A DNA stretch of 64,000 nucleotides from Streptomyces eurythermus (GTDB taxonomy: Bacteria > Actinomycetota > Actinomycetes > Streptomycetales > Streptomycetaceae). Below the pieces are notes generated by a model. The model did no database searches. It was not told where the DNA came from and worked only from the letters and a program-made list of their open reading frames with translations. Where the stretch lies: assembly GCF_014649115.1 (NCBI RefSeq), contig NZ_BMSK01000012.1:248001-312000 (forward strand), given 5' to 3'. The position numbers and the translations under genes are program-made. Shown in pieces: positions 34,960 to 39,698 of the stretch. Within the stretch, counting starts at the first letter, position 1. Each line of letters begins with the position of its first letter.

Positions 34960-36737
34960 CGCGCGAGTTCCTTTGCTTGTGGGGCCGCTTCGGGGGCCGC
35001 CGGTGAATTGAGGAAGAACAGCACCGCCCGGGCGGTCGCGTCGTTCTGCCGGAACGCGGGGCCGCCGGTGCGCGGCCGGGTGAACGCGCCGGGGGCGCGG
35101 ACGTCGGTGTACGGGCCGAGCGCGAACCGCCGGGGGTGCGGGCGCCCGGCGGTGTCCAGGATCCGGCCGTCGCCGGGGTCGACCCGGAGCAGTCCTTCGG
35201 GGGTCTCGGCGGCGCCGTCGGCGCGCAGCGCGCGCAGCAGGCCGTCACGGGTCCGGCCGACGGCGGGCTCGGGCAGCCGGGCCTCCACCAGGGCCCGGGC
35301 GGTGACGGCGAAGCCCGGCACGGTGGGGCTGGCGGCCCGGAACACCCCGTCCTCGGCGGTGACGGTCATGCCGGCCCCGACGAACCGGAGCAGCCCGGCC
35401 CGGGACAGCGCGAGCATCTGCCGCAGCCGGGGTCCGGGCGGCCCGGACGCCAGGTAGCTGAAGAACCCGTGCCACCAGGGCCCGATGTCGCCGAGCCGCA
35501 CCAGTTGCCCGTAGACGGAGAGCAGCCCGAGGAAGACGGCCAGGTCGGGGCTGTGGGCGGGGTCGTGACGGCGGCGCAGGTCCGCCTCGATGTAGTCCCG
35601 CAGCCCGTTCTGGAAGGCGTCGTGCGAGGCGTACCGCACGCCGTCCAACGGGTGGTCGAGCGCGGCCAGGTCGAGCCGATCGGCGGGGTCGGGCACGGCG
35701 GCGGCGACCAGTGCCCGCAGCCCGTCGGGGCCGTCGGCCGCCGCGTACTTCTCCTCGAAGTCCCGCCAGGCCATGGCCGTACGCCCGGGGTGGGCGGTGA
35801 ACAGCCGGTGGTAGTGGGCGAAGCCCAGCTCCTTCTCGACCAGCGGCCACACATCGCGCCGGAAGTCCGGGCCGCCGGGGCGGGCCAGCAGGGCGTCCAC
35901 CTCGGCGGGGCCGAGGAAGCGGGGCAGCGGCGGCCGGTCGCCGGCGAGGTCGTAGCCGATCTTGGAGTGGTACGGCACTCCGCGCCGGGAGCCGACGTAG
36001 AGCACCGGCTCCCGCCCCGAGGGCAGATACGTCTCCCCCTCGTACCGTCCGCCGCGGCCCTCGGTGAGCAGCACCATCAGGTCGACGAAGGCCAGTCCGA
36101 AGCCGCGGACGAGGACGGGTTCGCCGGGCCGCAGCGCGGACAGGTCGCTGTCGGCGGTGAAGTCGGGCGGCAGGTGCACCAGGCCGTGCTCGCGGGCGTA
36201 GGCGGCCAGCGCGGCCTGCTCGTCGTCGAGTTCGGCGTCCAGGTGGCCGAGGGCGAGGATCACCAGGTCGGCCGGGAGCGGTTCCGGGCGGCCGTCGAGC
36301 CACACCTGCTGGCGGCCGTCGCGGGGCCCGCTGATCCTGAGGGCGCGCCGGGGGTGGTGGTGGACGGTGACGTTCGGCGGCAGGGCGGCCCTGGCCCGGT
36401 CGTAGACCCAGCGCAGATAGCGGCCCTGGACCCGCCGGTCGGGGAAGACGCGGCCGTCGAGCCCGGCCCACTCGTGCAGGGTGGGGCCGGGGCGTACCGG
36501 GCCGTCCATGGCCACCGTGTCGTCGGTGAACATGGTGACGTCCTCGGCGTGCGAGTTCATCCACAGCAGCGGGGACTGTTCCTGGCGCCATATGCGTCCG
36601 CCGCCCGGCGGGTGGGGGTCGACCAGGTGGATGTCCAGGCCCTCGCCCGCGTACAGGGCGGGCGCGTTGGCGGCGAGGCGTTCGAGGACGCCGGTCCCCC
36701 GCGGCCCGGCCCCGACGATCACCAGCTGCTGCCTCAT
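34956..36737 (-). CDS. FAD/NAD(P)-binding protein (PF13454-type)
   Basis: 593 aa. The N-terminal Rossmann motif LVIVGAGPRGTGVLERL (about 5-21) starts an FAD/NAD(P)-binding domain. Further marks are PPGGGRIWRQEQSPLLWMN, VILALGHLDAE and VLVRGFGLAFVDLM. It is a flavoprotein oxidoreductase of the kind often found with amino-acid ABC transporters and flavin monooxygenases; the reaction is unknown. It sits between permease and ATPase genes with ATGA overlaps on both sides, so it is tied to uptake. Confidence 0.9.
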   Translation of the reverse strand: MRQQLVIVGAGPRGTGVLERLAANAPALYAGEGLDIHLVDPHPPGGGRIWRQEQSPLLWMNSHAEDVTMFTDDTVAMDGPVRPGPTLHEWAGLDGRVFPDRRVQGRYLRWVYDRARAALPPNVTVHHHPRRALRISGPRDGRQQVWLDGRPEPLPADLVILALGHLDAELDDEQAALAAYAREHGLVHLPPDFTADSDLSALRPGEPVLVRGFGLAFVDLMVLLTEGRGGRYEGETYLPSGREPVLYVGSRRGVPYHSKIGYDLAGDRPPLPRFLGPAEVDALLARPGGPDFRRDVWPLVEKELGFAHYHRLFTAHPGRTAMAWRDFEEKYAAADGPDGLRALVAAAVPDPADRLDLAALDHPLDGVRYASHDAFQNGLRDYIEADLRRRHDPAHSPDLAVFLGLLSVYGQLVRLGDIGPWWHGFFSYLASGPPGPRLRQMLALSRAGLLRFVGAGMTVTAEDGVFRAASPTVPGFAVTARALVEARLPEPAVGRTRDGLLRALRADGAAETPEGLLRVDPGDGRILDTAGRPHPRRFALGPYTDVRAPGAFTRPRTGGPAFRQNDATARAVLFFLNSPAAPEAAPQAKELAR

Positions 36738-37591
36738 CGGGTCCGCTCCGTGCCGCGCGCGTAGCGTTTCTCGACGTAGTACTGGCCGATGCCGAGCAGC
36801 GAGGTGACCACGGCGTACCAGAGGGTGGCGACCATCAGCAGCGGGATCACCTGGTAGGTGCGGTGGTAGACCAACTGGGCGGAGAACAGCAGGTCGTTGA
36901 CGGCGATGATGCTGACGATCGAGGTGCCCTTGAGGGTGCCGATCAGCATGTTGGCGGCGGGCGGCACGATGGAGCGCATCGCCTGCGGCAGCACGATCCG
37001 CCACCAGCGCCGGCCGGGGCTCAGGCCGAGCGCCTGGGCGGCCTCGATCTGTCCGCGGTCGACGGAGAGGATGCCGCCGCGCACGACCTCGGCGGCGTAG
37101 GCGGCCTCGTGCAGGGTGAGGCCGACGATCGCGACGGCGACCGGGCTGAGCAGGTTGACGGTCTTCACGCCGAAGACCTGCGGGTACAGCGCCCCGATGT
37201 TGAACCACAGCAGCAGCTGCACCAGGATCGGGATGGACCGGAACAGCCATACGTAGCCCCAGGCGACCGCCCGCAGCACGGGGTTGGCGGACAGCCGGAA
37301 CGCGGCGAGCAGGGTGCCGAGGGCGAAGCCGAGGGTCATCACCACGGCGGTCAGCCACAGGGTGAGCCACAGTCCGCGCAGGATGGCGTCGGAGGTGAAG
37401 TACTCGGCGACGACGTCCCATTGGAACGCCTTGTTGCTCAGGACGGAGTTGACGGCGAACCCGAGCAGCACGAGGACGGCGACGGCCGCCGCCCACTGGC
37501 CGAAGCGGCGGCGCGGGACGATCCGCGGGGCGTCGGCGGGTTCGGGTGTCTTGGCCGTGGCGGGGGTCTGGGCGAGGGTGTCGGATGACAT
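36734..37591 (-). CDS. polar amino-acid ABC transporter permease
   Basis: 285 aa. A cytoplasmic N-terminus of about 30 residues is followed by about six membrane helices and the EAA loop EAAQALGLSPGRRWWRIVLPQA (about residues 186-207). HisM/TcyL-type permease; the single subunit would form a homodimer. ATG at 37591 with GGAG upstream. A TTGACA-N19-TACTCT promoter candidate (complement 37698-37728) lies upstream. First gene of the six-gene minus-strand operon (permease, FAD protein, ATPase, two monooxygenases, DUF1684). Confidence 0.94.
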   Translation of the reverse strand: MSSDTLAQTPATAKTPEPADAPRIVPRRRFGQWAAAVAVLVLLGFAVNSVLSNKAFQWDVVAEYFTSDAILRGLWLTLWLTAVVMTLGFALGTLLAAFRLSANPVLRAVAWGYVWLFRSIPILVQLLLWFNIGALYPQVFGVKTVNLLSPVAVAIVGLTLHEAAYAAEVVRGGILSVDRGQIEAAQALGLSPGRRWWRIVLPQAMRSIVPPAANMLIGTLKGTSIVSIIAVNDLLFSAQLVYHRTYQVIPLLMVATLWYAVVTSLLGIGQYYVEKRYARGTERTR

Positions 37592-37697
37592 GCGAAGGCT
37601 CCGTGACGCGTGAATCGTCGGAACGAAGGTGATGCCTTCACACGGGCGCGCCGCGCGGCGCGATCACGGCCGAGCCCCTCAGCAGGGCCGTATGCCG

Positions 37698-37728
37698 AGA
37701 GTACGGGGCCGTTTCGGTCCGCTGTCAA
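37698..37728 (-). promoter_or_regulatory. putative promoter of the ABC/monooxygenase operon
   Basis: TTGACA (complement 37723-37728), 19-nt spacer, TACTCT (complement 37698-37703): a housekeeping-type promoter reading toward the permease gene. Spacing is slightly long. Confidence 0.45.
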
Positions 37729-37799
37729 GGTTGTCCATACTGTGAGCCGTACATCTCAAGTCAGTTGACGCGGAACCGGATGCCTGTTCCACTTGGCCC

Positions 37800-37871
37800 A
37801 TGCATCCACAGCAGTGGCTGGTCACCCGCTCCCACATCGACTTCGGTCGCGTGTGGTCCTGTTCCTGTTGA
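37800..37871 (+). CDS. 23-aa leader peptide ending Cys-Ser-Cys
   Basis: Short ORF upstream of the substrate-binding lipoprotein. The C-terminal half is RSHIDFGRVWSCSC, closely matching the (S/T)RxHIDxxRVxSAxC pattern of Streptomyces leader peptides found before sulfur-uptake genes. Two of the last three codons are Cys (TGT). A TTGACG at 37765 with a weak -10 just before the ATG suggests a leaderless transcript. A GC hairpin follows at 37889-37907. Likely a cysteine-sensing attenuation leader: ribosome stalling at Cys codons when cysteine is scarce would change downstream RNA folding. Confidence 0.8.
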   Translation: MHPQQWLVTRSHIDFGRVWSCSC

Positions 37872-37888
37872 GCTGACCCCCTGCGCGC

Positions 37889-37907
37889 GCCCGCCGGTCC
37901 GGCGGGC
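37889..37907. terminator. attenuator-like hairpin between leader peptide and lipoprotein gene
   Basis: GCCCGCC-ggtcc-GGCGGGC (37889-37895 and 37901-37907), 17 nt after the leader stop codon, followed by a pyrimidine-rich run. Position and stability fit a transcription attenuator or an anti-Shine-Dalgarno element for the downstream gene. Confidence 0.55.
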
Positions 37908-38001
37908 CTCCTCGCGTTCTCTTGCTTCCCCCGCCTTCACACGCGCCCCCCTCCCCTCGCGTTTTTCGCATACCCGTCTGCTCCCAGGAGACCGCTGACC
38001 G

Positions 38002-38949
38002 ATGCGTACGCCCATTTTTCGGTATGTCATGCCCTTTACCGCCATCACATCGGCCGCCCTGCTGCTCACCGCCTGCGGTTCGGGCTCCGGCGGCGCGGAC
38101 GGCACGGACGCCTCGGGAGTGGCGGCCAAGAACGCCGGGATACCCACCACCGACGTCGTCTCCGCCATCCGGAAGGACCCGGCCGCGGCGAGGCTGCTGC
38201 CCGCCGGCACCACGAACCTGACCGTCGCGGTCAGCGTCGGCGGCACCCCGCCCGGCACCGCCTACCTGGGCGACGGAAAGACCCTGACCGGCCAGGACGT
38301 CGACTTCACCCAGGCGGTGGCCCGGGTGCTCGGCATCAAGCTGAAGGTGGAGCAGGCGAGCTTCGACGCGATCCTGCCCGCCCTGGACAGCGGCAAGTAC
38401 GACTTCGGCGCCAGCAACTTCGGCGTCACCGACGAGCGCCGCAAGAGCGTGGACTTCGTCACCTACGTCAACGACGGGCAGGGCTTCGCCGCCCGCAAGG
38501 ACAGCGAGCTGACGAAGATCACCGACCTGAAGCAGCTGTGCGGCCTGAACGTGGCGACGGGCGCCGGCACCACCTTCGAGGCCACGCTGGAGCGGAGCAA
38601 GCACGTGTGCTCCGACGCGGGCAAGAAGGAGTACCGGGTGCAGACGTACGGCGAGCCGAGCGCGGTGTGGTCCTCGCTCCAGCAGGGCCGCAGCGATGTG
38701 GTGATGTCCACGATCAACGGCCTGCGCTACGCCGTCGCCCATCAGGGGGGCCTGAAGTTCCTCAACGAGTACCACCGCCTGGACGTCGGCTTCGCCTTCA
38801 AGAAGGGCTCGAAGCTGGCGCCGGCCTTCCAGGCGGCCGTCAACAAGCTGCTCTCCGACGGCTCCTACGAGCGGATTCTCAAGAAGTGGGGGACGACCGG
38901 CTCGGCGATCAAGGAGTCCCGTATCAGCCCGCCGGAACAGAGCAACTGA
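38002..38949 (+). CDS. amino-acid ABC transporter substrate-binding lipoprotein
   Basis: 315 aa. Signal peptide with lipobox LLTAC (Cys near 25), then a periplasmic-binding-protein type II fold of the polar amino-acid group (LTGQDVDFTQAVARVLGIK, KYDFGASNFGVTDERRKSVDFVTYV, LSDGSYERILKKWG). ATG at 38002 has CAGGAG upstream. Divergent from the permease-FAD-ATPase-monooxygenase operon and preceded by the Cys leader peptide and hairpin. Ligand is probably a sulfur-containing amino acid derivative (inference). Confidence 0.95.
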   Translation: MRTPIFRYVMPFTAITSAALLLTACGSGSGGADGTDASGVAAKNAGIPTTDVVSAIRKDPAAARLLPAGTTNLTVAVSVGGTPPGTAYLGDGKTLTGQDVDFTQAVARVLGIKLKVEQASFDAILPALDSGKYDFGASNFGVTDERRKSVDFVTYVNDGQGFAARKDSELTKITDLKQLCGLNVATGAGTTFEATLERSKHVCSDAGKKEYRVQTYGEPSAVWSSLQQGRSDVVMSTINGLRYAVAHQGGLKFLNEYHRLDVGFAFKKGSKLAPAFQAAVNKLLSDGSYERILKKWGTTGSAIKESRISPPEQSN

Positions 38950-39260: not shown

Positions 39261-39698
39261 ATGGGATCGGTACGCAAGGCGAGTGCATGGCTCGGCCTCG
39301 TCGACGACAACGATGACGAGCGCTACTACGACGACGACTACTCCGAGGGCACCGAGTCCGGGGACGCCTGGGTCACCGACCCGCGCGTGCGGGTGGCCAC
39401 GGACACCGCCGAGGAGAAGGGCCGCCGGATCGGCACGGTGACCCCGGACAGCTTCCGGGACGCCCGCGCCATCGGCGAGCTGTTCCGGGACGGAGTCCCG
39501 GTCATCATGAACCTCACCAACATGGAGCCCGGCGACGCCAAGCGGGTCGTGGACTTCGCGGCCGGGCTCATCTTCGGGCTGCGGGGCTCGATCGACCGCG
39601 TGTCCAACCGCGTGTTCCTGCTCACCCCGGCCGACACGGAGATCATCAGCGGCGAGGCGTCCGCGCACCGCTCCGACGGCTTCTTCAACCAGAGCTGA
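39261..39698 (+). CDS. SepF-like cell division protein
   Basis: 145 aa. An N-terminal amphipathic stretch ([15 protein letters not shown]) is followed by an acidic linker and the SepF core ([22 protein letters not shown] and [33 protein letters not shown]). It ends in FFNQS. SepF anchors FtsZ to the membrane. Streptomyces carry extra SepF-like proteins away from the dcw cluster; the isolated location suggests this is one of them (SflB-type). ATG at 39261 with GAGGAGG upstream. Confidence 0.92.

Follow-up and report, generated by a model that had tools for sequence, protein, structure and literature searches.

What is a 23-codon open reading frame doing just upstream of a gene for a solute-binding lipoprotein? 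The question is raised by a stretch of Streptomyces eurythermus DNA, 64,000 nt long (called the window, at its full length, in what follows), and a sequence-only reading had already offered an answer: a leader peptide with two sensing Cys codons near its end, a GC-rich attenuator hairpin 17 nt beyond its stop, and the lipoprotein gene 130 nt from that stop. The pieces themselves are in place, including Cys at codons 21 and 23, the hairpin, and the distance, with the ATG of the lipoprotein gene at 38002. Not all of the pieces appear to do what was asked of them. From comparison of sequences I conclude that the leader is real, that it is strongly conserved, and that it belongs to a known class of Cys-leaders, what is new about it being one codon predicted to sense cysteine and a hairpin in the RNA. 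Lying 5' of the gene of a sulfur-nutrient transporter, the leader probably reports cysteine shortage to the cell. The features on which the first steps of the argument rely are these:

37765-37793, + strand: leader promoter by a loose hexamer pattern, with -35 TTGACG (37765-37770), a 17-nt spacer, -10-like TCCACT (37788-37793), then 6 nt and the ATG
37800-37871, + strand: leader ORF MHPQQWLVTRSHIDFGRVWSCSC (23 codons, 37800-37868) with stop codon TGA (37869-37871), in 75 of 77 orthologous loci
37866-37868, + strand: Cys23 codon TGT, invariant Cys and the final sense codon in 69 of 76 sequences
38002-38949, + strand: solute-binding lipoprotein (SBP), SBP_bac_3, amino-acid/cystine type by HMM

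The leader ORF is not a product of chance, since it recurs 5' of 75 of the 77 loci named as SBP orthologues: 68 have it within 1.2 kb and seven at about 1.75-2.0 kb. The two exceptions are L088, which has no leader, and L090, which has none in its mere 403 nt of upstream sequence. A 27-mer taken from the leader core is found at 88 places in 76 of 150 Streptomyces genomes, while the reversed-pattern control is found in none of the 150. A 26-mer form of the core turned up in 9 of the 197 genomes of a class-wide sample, and all nine are Streptomyces. Plasmids gave no match to 37600-38100 by megablast; tblastn of the leader gave matches of 60-61% identity in 17 records of Streptomyces plasmids, and the gene table, which is incomplete, lists no gene beneath them.

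Then there is the matter of where the transcript begins. At 69 of 69 loci, by the loose pattern, a -10-like hexamer ends 6-7 nt before the ATG, and TTGAC lies 17-18 nt further up. A leaderless start at 37800, part of the earlier reading, is therefore likely as judged by promoter spacing alone, and the leader transcript likely begins at the start codon itself. A generic promoter scan of the window called no promoter here; TCCACT is a non-consensus -10.

The two Cys codons are not equals. Codon 23 alone is invariant, and the idea that both codons sense cysteine finds no support here: codon 21 encodes Ser in 44, Cys in 22, and Ala in 10 of the 76 sequences. GGT16, GTG18, TGT23, and the TGA stop are identical in all 76 (window included), against a background codon usage in which TGT makes up 13% of Cys codons, GGT 8%, and GTG 40%. 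When substitutions are mapped onto a tree of 69 lipoproteins, none falls at a synonymous site of Gly16, Val18, or Cys23, while 14 fall at base 2 and 17 at base 3 of codon 21; these counts are approximate, because a fixed register and the SBP tree were used. The constancy of the core codons CAC, ATC, GAC, and TTC says little, since these are strongly favoured in these genomes.

What could hold synonymous bases of Gly16 and Val18 in place? Two helices bear on the question:

37832-37856, + strand: hairpin P2 inside the ORF, CCACATCGAC (TTCG) GTCG-N-GTGTGG, with 10 pairs in 76 of 76 sequences
37811-37884, + strand: helix P1 by RNAalifold, pairing 37811-37831 in the ORF (5' arm) with 37870-37884 across the stop codon (3' arm)

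As RNA, P2 reads CCACAUCGAC(UUCG)GUCG-N-GUGUGG. It is built from core codons, and its one bulge is the freely varying wobble base of Arg17. All ten pairs are kept throughout, and the synonymous sites within it that are informative, those of Gly16 and Val18, are frozen, as against 16 changes on the same tree at the bulged wobble base. The distant leader L129 is instructive: Cys has replaced both Gly16 and Trp19, yet nine of the ten pairs are still there, so that the core may be conserved in part for the sake of its RNA. The window core is no more stable than its synonymous recodings (z -0.19), and so the case for P2 is made by conservation across orthologues. A core hairpin common to the whole family was considered and rejected, since among 23 leaders L010 and L129 alone clearly beat synonymous recoding (fraction 0.008).

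P1 is looser. Its pairs are kept in 47-64 of 65 sequences, except for one pair kept in 34, and the helix is partly broken in some relatives; L030 and L048 retain the 3' arm despite insertions. RNAalifold, given 18 close sequences, found no pair among 52 that was altered on both sides. Rfam gave no match over the entire window at the gathering threshold, and a search of 37600-38050 at E up to 10 gave two long-noncoding-RNA families, both far under their gathering scores.

The leader has company within its own genome. The NCBIfam model NF042936, run at E up to 10 against the 9.17 Mb, picks out 14 places, of which 13 carry a recognisable leader, that of the window and twelve relatives. At that setting 9 of 14 control genomes also match (1 of 14 at E up to 0.05), and it is therefore motif and position that justify keeping the five weakest leaders, L009-L013 (E 0.12 to 1.2); L014 was discarded. 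The relatives stand mostly 5' of genes of sulfur types (sulfite reductase, sulfatase, FMN-reductase, monooxygenase, and cysteine-synthase, named from their translations). The claim that leaders of this kind precede sulfur genes thus held up, from HMMs for the genes of the window and mostly from reading of translations for the relatives; leaders without a same-strand gene, found in other genomes and described below, are exceptions. Cys is found eleven residues after the core His (His+11) in 12 of the 13 leaders of the genome. In a wider set of 43 loci, two had no match to the pattern; of the 41 leaders found, 34 have Cys at His+11, always as TGT, and seven have no Cys there. Across the family relatives the core residues are kept while their codons vary.

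How does the window leader fit the class as described? It has the RxH[VI]D core and the Cys at His+11 of the broad class of actinobacterial Cys-leaders, and a single conserved Cys in place of a run of Cys codons near the stop. It shares with NF042936, the Ms4527A family, the core RxH[VI]D[LFY]xR and the C-terminal Cys, and differs from it in having one conserved Cys rather than a run and in its embedded UUCG hairpin. The score against that model is 27 bits (E 2.4e-6), short of the curated cut-off of 45 bits, which was reached in none of 16 Streptomyces genomes; at E up to 0.001 the model matches 4 of 60 genomes across the phylum, two of them outside Streptomyces. NF042934, a model of putative leader peptides (cis_reg_atten, cut-off 27 bits), has no match to the window leader at E up to 10, whereas 8 of the 10 own-genome relatives scanned, from the twelve, pass its cut-off. 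By these comparisons the window leader is within, or at the edge of, the known class. The class was called rarely annotated: models for it do exist, and it is the window's subgroup that falls beneath their cut-offs.

Cys-rich leader ORFs have been proposed in mycobacteria (PMC4633059, PMC1262725), and in the latter paper Rho is proposed for mycobacterial cys leaders. The results of Canestrari 2020 on Cys leader ORFs of M. smegmatis, as described in later papers that cite them, concern short ORFs that are leaderless, associated with cysteine genes, and supplied with Cys codons; the one here is similar, its leaderless start being likely. Their Cys codons are contiguous, while here a single one is conserved, and the translational mechanism described for them has no special support here. 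Literature searches for a Streptomyces Cys leader found none among the titles listed. PMC8079986 names eight leader peptides of S. lividans, none assigned to cysteine, and the consulted sections of PMC9386245 and PMC4833913 contain nothing on Cys leaders. If the present reading is right, cysteine-responsive leader ORFs would be extended from mycobacteria to a set of several operons in one Streptomyces genome.

What would such a leader do? Observation supplies the ORF, the geometry of its promoter, the invariant UGU, conservation at the level of RNA, the composition of the spacer, and neighbours that are mostly of sulfur type. What I infer is that the ORF is translated, that ribosomes stall on it, that Rho takes part, and which way the response goes. 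I propose, with somewhat better than even confidence, that stalling at UGU23 when Cys-tRNA is low relieves a block imposed by Rho, or less likely at the ribosome binding site, on a gene for sulfur uptake. The leaderless transcript would begin at the AUG of the 23-codon sensor ORF, and the ribosome would pass through P2 before coming upon the single conserved UGU just ahead of UGA. Were Cys-tRNA scarce, the ribosome would stall with UGU in its A site. Standing there, it would keep the leader helices open and shield the C-rich spacer or delay its exposure, so that Rho (or, less likely, sequestration of the ribosome binding site) would no longer block the downstream gene. With cysteine plentiful, the ribosome would leave, P1 and P2 would re-form, and expression would drop. 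A point against the proposal is that one Cys codon adjoining the stop permits a switch based on dwell time only, not one based on position.

The output of such a switch has to be sought in what lies between the two genes:

37889-37907, + strand: GC hairpin (the attenuator of the sequence-only reading), stem GCCCGCCG/CGGCGGGC, loop GTC, 17 nt past the leader stop
37872-38001, + strand: C-rich, G-poor spacer, a candidate Rho-loading region (C 64 and G 31 of 130)
37986-37990, + strand: Shine-Dalgarno AGGAG of the lipoprotein gene

The mean C-G skew of the spacer is 0.339 over 68 orthologues and 0.341 over the 12 own-genome relatives, as compared with 0.00 in 236 upstream regions and 0.029 in 288 post-stop regions. 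The skew of 37886-37995 is reached by 0.44% of the 110-nt stretches in the window, taking either strand. It is because the C-rich, G-poor spacer is common to relatives that I favour control by Rho over a terminator made of the GC hairpin, and the C-richness could arise from other causes. The terminator, which was the mechanism first suggested, would have the hairpin at 37889-37907 attenuate transcription intrinsically. Close relatives do have such a hairpin, with stems that change; relative to dinucleotide shuffles its mean z is -1.75 in the 31 loci with a gap under 200 nt and -0.63 in the 45 others (below -1 in 40 of all 76), so that the signal is clear in close relatives only and fades in distant ones. 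A terminator scan lists a weak site overlapping its 3' arm (a 5-pair stem at 37902-37915 with tail GTTCTCTTGC; one site found, 0.3 expected), and the 37889-37907 stem itself is absent from that list. The tail beyond the extended stem in the window, TCTCTTGCTT, has 6 T of 10, and 24 of 76 loci have at least five T in theirs, and so the terminator is to be called unlikely rather than excluded. Against it, the tail in the window has no run of U longer than two, neither inspection nor the consensus fold revealed an antiterminator, and a ribosome stalled at codon 23 probably cannot reach the hairpin, since on an assumed footprint its edge would be about 10 nt short of it. That this hairpin is a working attenuator is not supported, and intrinsic termination strikes me as improbable.

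A block on translation in place of transcription is possible, on the doubtful side. Here, as in M. smegmatis, the stalled ribosome would cover an anti-Shine-Dalgarno sequence (UCCUGU, the Cys codons themselves) and so free AGGAG. The Shine-Dalgarno sequence of the window is indeed predicted to pair with UUCCUGUU of the leader (p 0.95). The best predicted partner is in the leader ORF in 11 of 27 loci, but in the spacer in the other 16. Modelling a footprint blocked at the Cys codon raises mean predicted accessibility over the 27 loci from 0.117 to about 0.18. Shuffling the spacers of the same loci gives 0.137 (mean rank 0.46), hardly above the native value. The translational version is weakened by this, and the idea that sequestration evolved as a feature was set aside. 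A further obstacle is the varying distance between leader and SBP gene: it can be as short as 128 nt or reach about 2000 nt, and where it is long other genes intervene. One might also suppose that it is the peptide that senses. In E. coli TnaC the key residue comes directly before the stop and the output may be through Rho, and in both respects the window leader is similar; the conserved residues differ, and arrest by the window leader is putative. By analogy, RxH[VI]D[LF]xR within the exit tunnel would pause the ribosome at Cys-UGA in response to cysteine itself. The spacing of eleven residues from His to Cys and the retention of residues while codons vary, both described above, are what this reading would expect. 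In the subgroup of the window, however, the same codons also build P2, and L129 has let go of Gly16 and Trp19 while keeping nearly all of that hairpin. I regard nascent-peptide arrest as quite unlikely. One invariant UGU, usually directly before UGA, together with a frozen hairpin means that a few point mutations could separate sensing by codon, by peptide, and by RNA. Stalling for want of Cys-tRNA, relieving a Rho block, remains the reading I prefer in cis.

Control in cis does not explain leaders that have nothing to control. To find such leaders, use was made of exact matches to P2, a rule by which decayed leaders would be missed. Of the 88 core places 37 were fetched: all 29 from the 26 genomes in which no SBP matched at E up to 1e-60, plus 8 that are second copies, from genomes with SBP. 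Three further loci from the class-wide 26-mer search brought the number to 40, of which 20 were read gene by gene (ORFs of at least 90 codons, with a composition filter). The first gene is convergent in 16 of the 20, and SepF comes first on the same strand, at +465 to +605, in three (L183, L191, L211); L176 has another same-strand ORF at +451. The other 19 thus have an intact leader and no same-strand gene ahead of the convergent gene or SepF. Seventeen of these are in genomes without an SBP match, the genome of L203 has an SBP elsewhere, and L211 is outside the genomes searched for SBP. Of the 29 places in genomes that lack an SBP match, such orphans make up 17. The remainder are L189, which was left unread, L199, where the contig ends, and places with a different gene downstream. 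L177 has a weak SBP-like match (40%).

For the counts that follow, a set of 20 orphan loci includes L209, which was classed as an orphan on grounds other than the gene-by-gene reading and whose genome has an SBP elsewhere, and excludes L176. In 18 of the 20, the sequence fetched 3' of the leader includes a SepF-like gene; in the window, too, a SepF-like gene (39261-39698) lies 3' of the lipoprotein gene. A SepF tree of 85 tips, 18 of them orphans, requires 10 changes, and its largest orphan clade has five members, differing at up to 31% of third positions, with support 0.276. Most losses of SBP look separate and could be recent. Conservation even where no transporter gene follows hints, from the sequences, that the leader RNA may act on a second set of genes. 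A candidate is close at hand, on the other strand:

36734-37591, - strand: ABC permease, first gene of the divergent operon
37634-37644, - strand: CGUGUGAAGGC, 5' UTR of the divergent operon; its complement in the leader RNA is GCCUUCACACG
37666-37691, - strand: hairpin at the 5' end of the divergent mRNA, covarying stem, invariant loop CUGAGGGG, which served as the search key
37933-37958, + strand: conserved spacer element GCCTTCACACG ... CCCTCCCCTC

The divergent operon encodes the permease, an FAD-NAD(P)-binding protein, an ATPase of cystine/ectoine type, and two LLM-class monooxygenases. About 60 nt past its stop the leader RNA contains GCCUUCACAC, and the 5' UTR of the divergent mRNA contains GUGUGAAGGC. 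Because this conserved 10-mer of the leader RNA is complementary to that UTR, a role in trans is possible, judging from the two sequences. Where the leader is no more than 1.2 kb away (69 loci), a 9-mer with at most one mismatch finds the spacer copy at 60 and the upstream copy at 61. Most of the 20 orphans have them as well: 13 have an exact spacer copy, or 19 if one mismatch is allowed, and for the upstream copy these numbers are 14 and 17. No Rfam match was found in the region for the hairpin of the divergent mRNA. Since GCCTTCACACG has only three copies in the genome, it was rejected as the operator of a regulon; two copies are the direct repeats here (37634-37644 and 37933-37943), and one is inside the 3' end of another ORF.

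Could the leader unit be mainly a small RNA, pairing in trans with the divergent 5' UTR, with the Cys ORF serving to gate its synthesis? Sinorhizobium rnTrpL, an attenuator that acts as an sRNA, provides the model of a leader RNA at work in trans, while the present case is known from complementarity of sequence alone. The leaders without a same-strand target would make sense in this way, as would the covarying hairpin of the UTR and the company the 10-mer keeps: of 116 loci, it is in the spacer of 69 of the 95 that have the divergent UTR element and of 1 of the 21 that do not, and both complementary 10-mers are exact in 65 of the 95. But those 21 loci are of other types, most of the SBP losses look separate and could be recent, and duplex energies are on average modestly better than those of shuffles (mean z -1.03, below -1 in 50 of 95 loci) but not in the window (-0.15). 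A second complementarity, CCCCUC/GAGGGG, is weak evidence, since it is to be expected often in C-rich RNA. Moreover, both copies of the motif are direct repeats in the DNA (+ strand), and a DNA-binding protein with its operator explains that equally well. I consider a leader that is mainly an sRNA rather unlikely. The same goes, at about the same level of doubt, for an RNA gene of dual function, in which a Cys-gated sensor ORF would be joined to a 3' part able to pair in trans with the 5' UTR of the permease/oxidoreductase operon on the other strand, and which would be retained as a free-standing RNA where the transporter gene is absent. If true, it would tie the two sides of the locus alike to cysteine. 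Because some leaders have no gene downstream, whether an attenuator-type RNA acts in trans can be tested directly, and in a harmless genus.

The genes that intervene between leader and lipoprotein at some loci deserve mention. At L056, L061, L068, and others, translations read by eye point to a gene like those of GNAT acetyltransferases (a Pfam scan of a 60-aa fragment of it returned nothing), and in deeper relatives the place is taken by an LLM monooxygenase. Their sequences suggest salvage of S-alkylcysteine or sulfonate. A separate subclass of leaders, HIDLxRVCSA (L001, L124, L128, L130, and similar), has its Cys at His+7, not at His+11. The window's own type of leader is found elsewhere 5' of SsuD-like, GNAT-like, FMN-reductase, FAD-NAD(P), and LLM genes.
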